From positions 1 through 23,896 of IMG/VR virus record IMGVR_UViG_3300030117_004842: a stretch of DNA of 23,896 nt; one strand, 5' to 3'. Below the pieces are notes generated by a model that saw only the letters and a program-made list of their open reading frames with translations, did no database searches and was not told the origin of the DNA. Shown here piece after piece: positions 5,144 to 23,896 of this stretch; the stretch's first letter is position 1; each line of letters starts with the position of its first letter. This stretch comes from a virus. A program made the translations under genes and the position numbers.

Positions 5144-5833
5144 TTATAATGATTTTCTAAATTCTGCTCTAGTTCCACCTGGATTTAATTCTTGCCAAGC
5201 TTTAAACTGCTCTTCATTTATACTCATGTCAAGAGCACCAGCTCCTACACCACCTATAATTTTTCCAAAGCCTTGCATCATTTGACCTCCATAAGAAGCC
5301 TCTTGCTGTGAATATGAACTAGCTAAACTAGATTGTCTATTTAATTGTTGCATCTCTCTTTTTTCCTGAGCATCAAACATAAATTTATTTCCAGCCCCAC
5401 TAAACATAGCTAATTGTTTTTCCATAGCAGCTTGTCCTTGAGCTCTTAACTGTTGTACTCTAGCTTCTTGTTTTGATAAATCAGCTGCAACAGCTGCTCT
5501 ACCTTGGGTAGCGGCTCTAGCTAAAGCAGTGGCACCACCAGCTCCAGCACCTGTGGCTCTTAATGTATCTAGTGTATTAGCTAAAGCAATATCTTGTTGT
5601 TCAGACTGAAACTCAGCTGCCTGAGTGGATACTTGCACGTTTGCAAAAGGATTAGACAACATTTGCGCTGCCTCAGCATAAGGATTTATTATATCTTGTC
5701 TACTAGCCTCAAGTTCAGCTATTTTTGCCTCTGCAGCTAATCTATTTTTTCTAGCAGCTCTTTTTGCTCTACCCGCGCCGTAAGCTTGTATTACTCCTCC
5801 AAAAACCTGGGCACCTGCTGTTATCCAACTCAT
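5144..5833 (-). CDS. Internal virion protein, T7 gp14-like (229 aa)
   Basis: This short Ala/Gln-rich protein has a hydrophobic Gly/Ala N-terminus (WITAGAQVFGGVIQAYGAG, residues 3-21), followed by a basic patch (RAKRAARKNR) and a long helical region. The segment TQAAEFQSEQQDIALANTLD (about 71-90), followed by LRATGAGAGGATALARAA, is a pattern I recall from many marine and Bacteroidota phages in the gp14-like internal protein. A second Gly-rich segment (GFGKIIGGVGAGALD) lies near residue 190. Such proteins are packaged in the head and inserted into the outer membrane at infection. It starts 19 bases after the 504-aa tail gene in an A/T-only leader and abuts the 749-aa gene. The assignment rests on motif memory and gene order. 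Confidence 0.82.
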   Translation of the reverse strand: MSWITAGAQVFGGVIQAYGAGRAKRAARKNRLAAEAKIAELEASRQDIINPYAEAAQMLSNPFANVQVSTQAAEFQSEQQDIALANTLDTLRATGAGAGGATALARAATQGRAAVAADLSKQEARVQQLRAQGQAAMEKQLAMFSGAGNKFMFDAQEKREMQQLNRQSSLASSYSQQEASYGGQMMQGFGKIIGGVGAGALDMSINEEQFKAWQELNPGGTRAEFRKSL

Positions 5834-12898: not shown

Positions 12899-13717
12899 TT
12901 AGTTTTCTAGTTGTATTTTTTGTTGTGTTTCTTGTTGAGTAGGTTGTAATACAGAGGGATCTCTTATTACTATACCAGCATATCTTAATATACCTAATAC
13001 TAACTCAACTTCTTGAGATGGATGTAATTCAAAGTCAATATATCTTGATTGAAAGCTATAATCACCTGTAACATCTTGTCTAGGATAAACAAAAGATGTA
13101 GAATCTGAAGGATTACCACCATAAAAGGCAACTCCTCCAAAAACATCAGTTCTAACGTGCGCCCAAACAGGATTTGCTGGTACTTTAATATAATCTATCT
13201 TTATACTACTATTAGCCAAACTTGTGGGTTGAACAGTAATAGTATCATACACTGGGTTTAAAGTTGTTTCTTGGTTATCTACTTCTCGTGTACCGGATAA
13301 ATAATATATAGGAAATGATGCTGATGGACTTGTTAATGGGGAAGACATTAAAAAATTTATTTTTGATTTTTCAATTTGTTCTATATCTGTAAGTCTATCA
13401 CATGAAGATACACTTAATATATAATAATAGCTAGGAAGATTACCTATACTATTAGCATCAAGTGTTATATCTGTTGAAACGTAAAATGGATCTATACGTT
13501 CCTGAATTTTTTTTGGTATATTGGCATATCCTTGACCAACAGCACCTCTTGTTTGTTTACTGACAGCTCTGTTAAAATCATGAAAGTTTTTTTCTAGTAA
13601 ATCTAATTGAACTTGAGAACCTATTTTCATAAATTCATCTGGACTCATAAAACCTCTTGATTCTTTATTTAGTACTGCTAATACTTTTTTATATACTGAA
13701 TCTACTGATATTGCCAT
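12899..13717 (-). CDS. Putative connector / ring protein (272 aa)
   Basis: I take the start at ATG 13717 (MAISVDSVYKKVLAVLNKES). An in-frame GTG at 13738 would add MIIIIKN, but it lies in the base of a hairpin and encodes a low-complexity extension. The N-terminal helical part, with GFMSPDEFMKIGSQVQLDLL (about 22-41), matches a pattern I recall at the start of small structural proteins in marine phages beside the tail genes. The rest is beta-rich, ending in HPSQEVELVLGILRYAGIVI and a Gln-rich tail (QPTQQETQQKIQ). The A/T-rich leader AATAATAAAAAAT precedes the ATG, without Shine-Dalgarno. Context places it among the rings between portal and nozzle. Confidence 0.75.
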   Translation of the reverse strand: MAISVDSVYKKVLAVLNKESRGFMSPDEFMKIGSQVQLDLLEKNFHDFNRAVSKQTRGAVGQGYANIPKKIQERIDPFYVSTDITLDANSIGNLPSYYYILSVSSCDRLTDIEQIEKSKINFLMSSPLTSPSASFPIYYLSGTREVDNQETTLNPVYDTITVQPTSLANSSIKIDYIKVPANPVWAHVRTDVFGGVAFYGGNPSDSTSFVYPRQDVTGDYSFQSRYIDFELHPSQEVELVLGILRYAGIVIRDPSVLQPTQQETQQKIQLEN

Positions 13718-13734
13718 ATTTTTTATTATTATAA

Positions 13735-13761
13735 TCACAGGCCCTAATTAAAGGGCCGTGA
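13735..13761 (-). terminator. Hairpin between the 260-aa and connector genes
   Basis: GGCCCT-TTAATT-AGGGCC is a perfect 6-bp stem, extended by TCAC/GTGA with one bulged base, on either strand. In the direction of transcription it is followed by TTATAATAATAA rather than a clean T-run. It could be a weak terminator, an RNA processing or stability element, or a translation control element; it ends 18 bases before the ATG of the connector gene (13717). Confidence 0.6.
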
Positions 13762-20222: not shown

Positions 20223-22448
20223 TTATATTATTTTAGATCTTATTCCTTTGTTGTCGTATTTTTTAATACCAAGATCAATTGATTTTATTGTTCTTTCTTG
20301 AGTTGGTTTATATAGGTTTTTATTACAAGCCATTAAAGCTAATCCTGAACTAATAGAAGCATCAAATCTAGTTCTATTATTTATATTAAATTTTGCCCAG
20401 TCTTCAAGAGTTCTTTGAAAATATACATCACCATAATTATCGCCTAAATTTCCTACATAATTTTCAATATAACTTTCTATAGCTGCTGCATGTGCTTGTT
20501 TTATATCTTCACTTGAGTTTGGTATACCACCTATTTCTTTTTCAGCAACAGATAGTTTGTTCCAAACTTTATCAGGTCTATTCATACTAAACCCTCTATA
20601 ACCTCTACGTTTTAAATAATATAAAAGTCTAGGTTTATTATTTTCACATAATATTGGCATACCGTAAAAAACAATAGCCATTAAAACATCTTCAAAAAAT
20701 ATTTCAGCTGTTTGTGGTCTAGCTATATATTCCAAAAATATTCTATTTGGCGGTGCATTTTCCATGCTAAATTTTGTTATACCGTGTAAAGCTCCATTTG
20801 AACCAGATCTATCAACTGTTCCTGATATATCATAGCTATCACAACCAAACGCACCAACGTGTTCATTACCAGGATATTTAACACCGTTTTTAACAAAAAA
20901 TCTATTTTGCATATTTGTTTCAGGTATCCAACTTACTTTAAATCTACCATTATTACTTGGCATAAATTCTACAGTTGTATCTTTTATACCATTACGCCAT
21001 TGGAAACTACCTTGTGTTACAAGCCCAGACATTTTAACTTCTTCGTTATAATCTATTTGCTCATATATTTTTGTTAGATTAAATAAACTTTCTTTTGTTT
21101 CATCTCTAAAAGCATGTTGTTCTGTACGAGGAAACTGTCTGTAAAATTCATTTAAAGCATCTTGATCAGACTTTAAACCTTCAACTTCGTTTTGCCAATA
21201 ATCAATTACACCGTTTTTAATTTCATCTCCATATGGTCCAAAAACTTTCTCTCCTGGATTTTTGAATACAGGTAATCCATAAGAATCAATGTATCCTTCG
21301 TAGTTCCATTCCATAGGTATGAACAAACTATAGAGTCCTGAACGAGTCTGTCCGTTGCGGTTTCTTTTGGTAACATCTGAATCATAATATAGTTTTTTAA
21401 AATTATCGCCTCCTTTATCTAATGCATTTGACGTTGAGCCCATCATACATTTACCAACTATTCTACTACCTAGTCTTAATGTGGTTTTCGTAACCCTCCA
21501 GTTGTTGAGGATGTTGTTCGGACGCTCCCACTTCCCGGACTCGTCGTGTACGAGGAGTTTGAGTTTCTCCCCATCGTAGGAGTTATCACCTGTATTCTTC
21601 CAGTCGATAGTGGTGTCCAGTCCCTTGAGATCCTGTAAGGCTTCGTCGGTGGTGGTGGAGGTGGAGGTAAGTTTACGACGGGTATATTTGGTGGCTGGGA
21701 CACGGTAGGCAAGTTCGGTCTTTGGACGGTCCATTCCGTCCTGGGTCGGTTTGAAAAAGAAGGGGTAATTAACCGATATGGGTACCACCTTATCTGTGAA
21801 CATGGACTTCGCATCAGGTCCAGACTTGGATAATATACCATACCTGGAGTCACTTGATATGGTTGCCAAGTTAACCACCTCTCCTGAGGCCATAAAAGAA
21901 AACCCGGACCGCCTATTCTTAAGGTAACACATCCCAAAGGATCGTGAATCTGCCTTACAAGCTTCCCAGAAAATAAAGAATAATCTATTTGATTCACGGA
22001 AGTTTGGTGCGCCGACGTCAATCTTAGACCACTGCAAGTACATGTAATGAGTACCACTAATGTAAGTAGGAACGTCTTTGTTATAAAACCAAAAACCTTC
22101 TTCCCTACGAGTAAATTCATTATCGATGTAATCATACCATTTTTCTTTAAAATCTTGTGGATACTGTTTAAAATCGTAAACAGTTTTAATTTTTTTTAAT
22201 TCAACAGGATAATCAAATTTAGTCCACTTGTTTTCTTTAAATTTATGTATGTTTTTTGATTTAGGTAAAGCTATTTTTAAATTTTGTATTTCATATATTT
22301 CACCTATTTCACCTGTTCTACTTATAACTACAAAGTCATGATCTTCATTGTAACCGTACTCCCATTTTTTATACCTATTGTTTCTAGCTAAAACTTTAGG
22401 TTTAACATAGTCTTTTAGTACTTTTATTAAAGTTTGTTCGTATTTCAT
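20223..22448 (-). CDS. terL: Terminase large subunit, ATPase plus nuclease (741 aa)
   Basis: This is the packaging motor that cuts and translocates phage DNA into the head. The ATPase part has an atypical Walker A (KNRRSGFS, 177-184), a Walker B (LKLLVHDE, 296-303, with D302/E303) and a coupling motif (MMGSTSNALDKGG, 335-347). A further conserved block, KRNRNGQTRSGLYSLFIP, is at 361-378. The C-terminal RNase H-like nuclease shows GCDSYD (Asp near 537), LCENNK (Glu near 602) and TRFDASISSG (Asp near 696) as candidate metal-binding carboxylates. The 741-aa length is long, as in crAss-like phages. The start codon overlaps the previous stop (ATGA) and is preceded by AAAGGAGGT, the only clear Shine-Dalgarno in the window. 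Codons for about residues 122-324 are GC-rich, unlike both ends of the gene. Confidence 0.93.
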   Translation of the reverse strand: MKYEQTLIKVLKDYVKPKVLARNNRYKKWEYGYNEDHDFVVISRTGEIGEIYEIQNLKIALPKSKNIHKFKENKWTKFDYPVELKKIKTVYDFKQYPQDFKEKWYDYIDNEFTRREEGFWFYNKDVPTYISGTHYMYLQWSKIDVGAPNFRESNRLFFIFWEACKADSRSFGMCYLKNRRSGFSFMASGEVVNLATISSDSRYGILSKSGPDAKSMFTDKVVPISVNYPFFFKPTQDGMDRPKTELAYRVPATKYTRRKLTSTSTTTDEALQDLKGLDTTIDWKNTGDNSYDGEKLKLLVHDESGKWERPNNILNNWRVTKTTLRLGSRIVGKCMMGSTSNALDKGGDNFKKLYYDSDVTKRNRNGQTRSGLYSLFIPMEWNYEGYIDSYGLPVFKNPGEKVFGPYGDEIKNGVIDYWQNEVEGLKSDQDALNEFYRQFPRTEQHAFRDETKESLFNLTKIYEQIDYNEEVKMSGLVTQGSFQWRNGIKDTTVEFMPSNNGRFKVSWIPETNMQNRFFVKNGVKYPGNEHVGAFGCDSYDISGTVDRSGSNGALHGITKFSMENAPPNRIFLEYIARPQTAEIFFEDVLMAIVFYGMPILCENNKPRLLYYLKRRGYRGFSMNRPDKVWNKLSVAEKEIGGIPNSSEDIKQAHAAAIESYIENYVGNLGDNYGDVYFQRTLEDWAKFNINNRTRFDASISSGLALMACNKNLYKPTQERTIKSIDLGIKKYDNKGIRSKII
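21478..22085. other. High-GC compositional island inside terL
   Basis: Hand counting the nine 60-base lines from 21481 to 22020 gives 262 of 540 G+C (about 48%). The line 22141-22200 has 11 of 60 and the line 21361-21420 has 15 of 60. Inside the island Thr, Ser, Lys and Leu often use ACC, TCC, AAG and CTC; outside they use ACA/ACT, TCA/AGT, AAA and TTA. The left edge is sharp (between codons ACC and ACA-TTA-AGA near 21478); the right edge fades between about 22020 and 22085. The reading frame of terL continues through it unbroken. The segment covers the ATPase core from before Walker A to just after Walker B. Both edges are estimates by eye. Confidence 0.85.
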
Positions 22449-23789: not shown

Positions 23790-23805
23790 TAATTAAATTT
23801 AATTA
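23790..23805. repeat. 16-base perfect A/T palindrome at the stop of the holin fragment
   Basis: TAATTAAATTTAATTA equals its own reverse complement and contains the TAA stop of the partial membrane-protein gene. It could be a weak hairpin end, but an A/T palindrome of this length may also arise by chance in such DNA. Confidence 0.45.
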
Positions 23806-23896
23806 TTTTTTAAATATACTAGCTGCTTTTTCACCACTTCGTCCACCGAAATAGGCTAAAACTACAGCCATCATAACTTTCTCAAAAGTATCGTTC
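23803..23896 (-). CDS. Probable holin or small membrane protein, C-terminus only
   Basis: A frame open from the right edge encodes 30 residues, NDTFEKVMMAVVLAYFGGRS then GEKAASIFKK, and stops at TAA 23803-23805. The hydrophobic stretch VMMAVVLAYFGG followed by a polar, basic tail looks like the last membrane helix of a phage three-helix holin, a pattern I recall as AVVLAYFGGR-SEK. Most of the gene is outside the window, so the holin call rests on this tail alone; another small membrane protein is possible. If right, the lysis function sits directly before the packaging genes. Confidence 0.5.
   Translation of the reverse strand, partial: NDTFEKVMMAVVLAYFGGRSGEKAASIFKK

Follow-up and report, generated by a model that had tools for sequence, protein, structure and literature searches.

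The terL gene and the frame nested within it

The DNA analyzed here, referred to below as the window, is a 23,896-nt stretch of the IMG/VR virus record IMGVR_UViG_3300030117_004842. It carries a gene for the large terminase subunit, TerL, whose 87 GenBank phage relatives reach 62% identity at best (Table 1). Part of this gene stands out by its composition. An earlier note, made from the letters alone, had counted about 48% GC at 21481-22020, and the count is borne out at 48.5% against 31.6% for the whole window, with 46.9% over 21478-22085. A scan of the entire window placed the top-scoring GC segment at 21481-21969 (49.7% GC, log-likelihood ratio 34.4; runner-up 14.8). The switch in synonymous codon choice described in the note is also present, with a third-position GC content (GC3) of 0.57 in terL codons 136-325 and 0.11-0.24 elsewhere in the gene (0.17 in codons 1-110, about 0.11-0.22 in codons 326-741), and the terL frame runs intact across the block, as had been claimed. 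Over 60 codons, GC3 peaks at 0.75 in terL and at no more than 0.37 in every other gene of the window. Two further segments are raised in GC, 5422-5820 (44.6%) and 1-342 (42.7%); since their host genes are low in GC3 (60-codon maxima of 0.23 and 0.28), the GC there reflects an Ala/Gly/Arg-rich protein and not a synonymous shift.

The block is spanned by a 660-nt open reading frame (ORF) that was missed at the first reading; it shares the strand of terL and runs in its +1 frame. Its stop codon gives the sharp left edge of the block, which proved real; the right edge, proposed at 22085, lies somewhat inside that position, at about terL codon 136 (22043). Translation would initiate at an internal ATG and terminate at 21478, yielding a product with a short basic N-terminus, one hydrophobic anchor or signal segment ending in CTCSG, and a Pro/Ser/Thr/Arg-rich tail that is probably disordered.

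Table 1. Features of the terL locus in the window
Feature	Position	Strand	Evidence
terL (large terminase subunit, 741 aa), the host gene of the overlapping ORF	20223..22448	-	PHROG 6681 match, E 2.3e-161
Putative overprinted ORF, 219 aa, +1 frame of terL, ATG to stop, wholly within terL	21476..22135	-	ORF list; 0 +1 stops in codons 105-324; homologous ORF in 50/80 relatives
ATG start, terL codon 105 (TAT followed by G)	22133..22135	-	ATG in 51/51 ORF+; codon third base T in 19/27 ORF-
Predicted membrane anchor or signal segment, terL codons 124-135	22044..22079	-	Hydropathy; near-absence of D/E/N/Q/H; AlphaFold helix 12-35
CTCSG motif of the predicted protein, terL codons 136-140 (MYLQW)	22029..22043	-	Codon choice in ORF+
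GC3-raised, putatively dual-coding stretch, encoding the predicted polar tail	21478..22043	-	GC scan, GC3, residue enrichment
Run of seven prolines, residues 157-163, in the predicted tail; in TerL, a short variable insert	21647..21667	-	Window sequence, alignment
Stop codon of the +1 ORF, sharp left edge of the GC block	21476..21478	-	ORF list; GC3 profile

Distribution and exchange of the two alleles

The relatives compared were 80 IMG/VR contigs with a TerL identity of 75-92%, which together with the window gave 81 sequences. A sequence was classed as ORF+ when it had an ATG at terL codon 105 and a +1 ORF of more than 170 aa. By this definition 51 of the 81 independently assembled sequences are ORF+ and 30 are ORF-. 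Block GC3 ranges from 0.11 to 0.61 among the relatives, and the flanks lie mostly at 0.1-0.35 in all of them. In 81/81 sequences (51 + 30), presence of the ORF goes with a GC3 over codons 141-295 that exceeds 0.40 and its absence with one that does not, and the two agree in 13/13 phylogenetically independent pairs (p = 0.00024; p = 1 for the flank GC3 control). Moreover, the stops of the ORF cluster at terL codon 296 or 314-326 (296, 314, 319, 324 or 326, depending on the clade), and GC3 drops directly past the +1 stop in each length class, from 0.66 to 0.32 for codon 296, from 0.73 to 0.21 for codon 324 and from 0.67 to 0.24 for codon 326. The same composition step in all relatives, together with the same placement of the three TerL parts, had been named in advance as a sign of selection on codons rather than transfer; most relatives do show the step, but it is polymorphic.

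Beyond this set, at least 592 stretches in IMG/VR match the predicted protein. The 79 further IMG/VR loci that were fetched all carry terL in the other frame, and the ORF is open in 78 of them. In the whole records of 16 phages the search found one matching place per record, located in terL wherever checked, and no stand-alone second copy. No homologue was found in GenBank phages; the Manatee Spring phage, a more distant relative with 62% TerL identity, lacks such an ORF, so the gene probably arose inside the marine clade. Since about one third of the relatives lack the ORF, it would be accessory and not essential to the clade. In three relatives (L069, L080 and L081) ACG replaces the ATG at codon 105, the +1 frame is still open and GC3 is intermediate (0.33-0.37); these are probable decaying copies of the gene, or another start is in use.

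The evolutionary history of the block is distinct from that of its flanks. On the terL-flank tree the presence of the ORF is scattered and requires 16 changes, and an AU test on the flank data rejects all ORF+ sequences as one clade (p = 1.7e-85); the block DNA does group them. However, composition may be the cause of the ORF+ grouping in the block DNA tree. With third bases recoded as RY the count is 8 changes, and on the block protein tree it is 13. A single origin of the ORF+ allele is likely. Two groups illustrate the conflict: the flank data reject the clades {window, L002-L005} (p = 0.0145) and {L039, L061} (p = 0.005; 0.00532), which the block supports at 94 (not starred) and 100, respectively. 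Compared with L004 and L005, the window is 93-100% identical in codons 101-250 and 59-80% identical in codons 1-100, and L039 and L061 are 95-100% identical to each other in codons 151-300 and 67-85% identical over much of the downstream flank. Pairs of one ORF+ and one ORF- sequence have a block identity of about 73% at a flank identity of 70% just as at one of 86%, which indicates that the two alleles are old and have been swapped, rather than the ORF being lost locally each time.

Block and flanks thus have incompatible trees, the mark of a recombinant allele; the note had called for separate phylogenies of parts of TerL, and those of block and flanks disagree in their placements. Homologous replacement of the conserved core, one of the causes it had proposed, therefore stands as a process among relatives, on the evidence of the tree conflict and the 73% block identity, and falls as the source of the composition. 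A homing endonuclease, also proposed there, is not required for the exchange. The ORF+ and ORF- alleles spread among related marine phages through homologous recombination within terL.

Selection on the +1 frame and the origin of the GC step

Within terL codons 105-324 of the window, the 6.3 stops expected in the +1 frame are reduced to none, a count below that of all 2000 shuffles in which synonymous codons were swapped inside the block, preserving both the TerL protein and its codon usage. Leu, Val and Ile codons ending in A allow a more specific comparison, as they make a +1 stop only when A or G follows. In the ORF+ blocks these codons end in A at 0 of 893 sites in the stop context and at 386 of 691 (56%) in the harmless context; the former figure follows from the definition of ORF+ and the latter does not. 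In the flanks the proportion is about 62-67% in both contexts, and ORF- blocks use A-ending codons in both (48% and 70%). The 56% in harmless context shows an AT-rich mutational regime still in force locally. The coincidence of GC3 and stop, like the shuffle result, is partly circular, ORF+ rows being defined as open. The circularity does not extend to the harmless-context codons, the choices at the ATG, anchor and CTCSG, or the opposite shifts of anchor and tail.

Codon choice at the CTCSG motif is nearly invariant. In ORF+ sequences the terL codon for Y137 is always TAC (51/51), that for L138 always ends in G (51/51) and that for Q139 is CAG in 50/51, choices that spell CTCSG in the +1 protein; at the same three terL sites the corresponding counts in ORF- sequences are 12/27, 12/27 and 6/27. 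The hydropathy of the +1 frame over codons 125-136 is 2.67 against an expected 0.80, and all 51 ORF+ sequences exceed expectation. The frame is thus kept open beyond expectation, its start and end are conserved, and selection is seen at the amino-acid level in the +1 frame. The tail evolves fast (mean column identity 58%), so its precise sequence is under weak selection.

Each third base of a TerL codon also serves as the middle base in a +1 codon. In the genetic code a middle T specifies hydrophobic residues, a middle C gives Ser, Pro, Thr or Ala, and a middle G gives Arg, Gly, Ser, Trp or Cys. Hydrophobic residues show a 1.5-fold excess in the anchor segment, which has essentially no Asp, Glu, Asn, Gln or His. 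In the tail they drop to 0.6-fold, and the enriched residues there are Pro (7.9-fold), Ser/Thr (2.7-fold) and Arg (2.8-fold); the same ratios are about 1 in the flanks and mostly near 1 in ORF- sequences. The third-base shift consequently runs in opposite directions in the anchor, which is T-biased, and in the tail. A protein that is first anchored and then polar would force T on the third positions of terL codons across the anchor and C or G across the tail, producing the GC step. Because the residue demands of anchor and tail differ, the GC block starts where the anchor ends and finishes at the stop, which accounts for both edges. Stop avoidance alone was rejected as the cause: when codons were redrawn from flank usage with +1 stops forbidden, in a simulation covering five sequences, GC3 in the window rose from 0.13 to 0.14, as against the observed 0.53. 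GC3 is also raised at codons where a +1 stop is impossible. Stop avoidance being insufficient, explaining GC3 requires the residue composition of the +1 protein.

These observations lead us to read the GC-raised block, with a probability of about 0.9, as the trace of a second gene, one that is overprinted on terL and read in the +1 frame; this probability does not extend to the role of the gene. We infer that the gene is translated. A different route of expression, programmed frameshifting from terL, which would fuse the TerL N-terminus to the tail and involve no internal initiation, would suit some relatives (L011, L012, L065 and L071) whose +1 frame is open well upstream of the start, from codon 60. 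That upstream stretch is variable and has normal GC3, however, and both the invariant ATG and the placement of the hydrophobic segment where an N-terminal signal anchor belongs speak for internal initiation, so that frameshifting seems improbable.

Slightly less credit is due to homologous replacement of the ATPase core with a GC-richer phage as donor, the open +1 frame being a by-product of the donor's composition. The difference between block and flank trees and the exchange of the block between relatives agree with it. Yet shuffles that keep the block's codon usage produce about six +1 stops instead of none, and a GC-rich donor would not show A-ending Leu, Val and Ile codons at the AT-rich level wherever they are harmless. 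The anchor of the same ORF is T-biased rather than GC-biased, the flanks of ORF+ phages are AT-rich throughout, and the fall in GC3 follows the ORF stop in all length classes. Foreign composition, as first suggested for this block, is therefore set aside as its cause.

Selection on the DNA or RNA itself, through a packaging site, an RNA structure or a slow-codon programme, would leave the +1 frame open incidentally. Third-base changes on their own do not always reveal whether a site is selected for its nucleotides or for the +1 amino acids; selection on DNA or RNA does not, however, predict avoidance of exactly those contexts that create +1 stops, nor the conserved ATG, the differing residue shifts of anchor and tail, or steps that end at different stops in different clades, and we regard it as very unlikely. 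An assembly chimera of two phages joined at conserved sequence, the artefact against which the note had warned, is rejected as next to impossible: nothing in the window supports it, the alignment of the window with L002 and L003, its two nearest relatives, runs from end to end, and the block recurs with the same edges in dozens of contigs that come from different metagenomes, in register in all ORF+ terL genes and absent from the 30 others.

An antisense overlapping gene was also considered and rejected, the antisense open lengths being inconsistent among ORF+ sequences and not unusual in terL. Elsewhere in the window, two minus-strand genes contain open stretches that exceed codon shuffles, one of 64 codons in the +1 frame (gene at 12899-13738, p < 0.01) and one of 159 codons in antisense (gene at 3-2879, p 0.01); these may be due to chance, as about 85 frames were tested and neither has a GC3 step.

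The predicted protein and its place among overprinted genes

Across the relatives the protein predicted from the overprinted ORF is basic and 186-220 aa long. AlphaFold models one N-terminal helix, residues 12-35, and no confident structure beyond it (pLDDT 42.5). Searches of Pfam and PHROG with the window protein gave no match, and comparison of the relatives' +1 proteins with known families returned only scattered weak matches to unnamed families. The sole PDB match to the protein profile, titin (E 0.023), was taken as chance. The predicted tail would lie outside the inner membrane.

Our best guess is that the product is an accessory late envelope protein. A function as a lysis helper is a tentative suggestion, a function in superinfection exclusion is doubtful, and some other envelope role may take up what these two leave. 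In the record of L002, the nearest relative, a holin gene (PHROG-3427) precedes terL by about 1.3 kb and has the same orientation; together with the lysis genes of that record, this suggests that the overprinted gene would be made with the late genes. The window itself ends in part of a minus-strand gene (23797-23896) that reads NDTFEKVMMAVVLAYFGGRSGEKAASIFKK and by eye resembles the end of the PHROG-3427 holin at L163:17467-17925, so a holin gene probably lies just upstream of the window's terL cluster. Far from terL, the L002 record also encodes an i-spanin-like protein of 96 aa with an N-terminal transmembrane segment and a coiled coil (L165:6532-6819). Next to it are a secreted thioredoxin-like protein (L165:6822-7217) and, downstream, an M15-peptidase endolysin (L165:7371-7829); the records of L004 and L015 contain the i-spanin-like protein too, as does that of L027, an ORF- relative. 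The ends of the 77-kb L002 contig (IMGVR_UViG_3300030380_004057; L162:10-17381 and L165:6822-16964) hold the same gene run in similar but clearly diverged form. This contig may join two related strains, which would make its full-length structure unreliable; terL lies outside the duplicated part.

Embedded genes are familiar from two-component spanins, such as the lambda Rz1 o-spanin within Rz (PMC6139136, PMC5295617). The protein predicted here resembles Rz1 in being encoded out of frame inside another gene and in having a signal-like N-terminus with Cys and, in some members, a proline-rich tail. It differs in that its host gene is the terminase, its length is about 190-220 aa, it is accessory, and its proline run is not conserved across relatives. 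The o-spanin lipobox follows the consensus [LVI][ASTVI][GAS]C (PMC6139136), from which the LITC and TCTC of the predicted protein depart in having T or I at position -1; as non-canonical lipoboxes exist, the protein may still be lipidated. The ORF sits in terL and not in an i-spanin gene, and Pfam and PHROG searches detected no homology to known spanin families. With no canonical lipobox, a location outside any i-spanin gene and no homology, the protein falls outside the definition of an embedded o-spanin.

Gene E of phiX174, located within gene D, is an overprinted gene for a short membrane protein. Like it, the ORF in terL arose inside a conserved gene older than itself, on the same strand but in a different frame, and is predicted to encode a membrane protein. 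The present case differs in belonging to a dsDNA tailed phage with a large genome, in having terL as host gene, in encoding 186-220 aa, and in being polymorphic and moved by recombination; no sequence relation to phiX174 E was found. Phage superinfection-exclusion membrane proteins and lipoproteins share with the predicted protein a small size, an envelope anchor, an accessory nature and a patchy distribution. This is a resemblance only, with no homology detected, and those we know of are stand-alone genes, unlike the ORF described here.

Nested out-of-frame genes of 560-660 nt with evolutionary evidence are, to our knowledge, seldom documented in tailed phages, and gene callers suppress fully nested out-of-frame genes. 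Overprinted genes as such are a known kind (PMC8227390, PMC6195259, PMC7017920), and overprinting has been reviewed (PMC8227390). Literature searches, confined to open-access papers, brought up no previous description of a gene nested in terL. We give roughly even odds to the fuller description, in which this is an undescribed family of membrane-anchored late phage proteins, overprinted on the terminase ATPase core and polymorphic for presence and absence in marine phages related to Flavobacteriia phages, with dual-coding alleles swapped by homologous recombination and a probable role in lysis or superinfection exclusion.

terL is a common marker for phage phylogeny. As block and flanks yield different trees, whole-terL trees are misled in this clade, as are composition screens. 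A GC3 step ending at an alternative-frame stop is suggested as a means of finding hidden genes. Meanwhile, the natural ORF+ and ORF- alleles and the decaying intermediates, with their known edges, offer a ready system for studying the birth, constraint and loss of overprinted genes.
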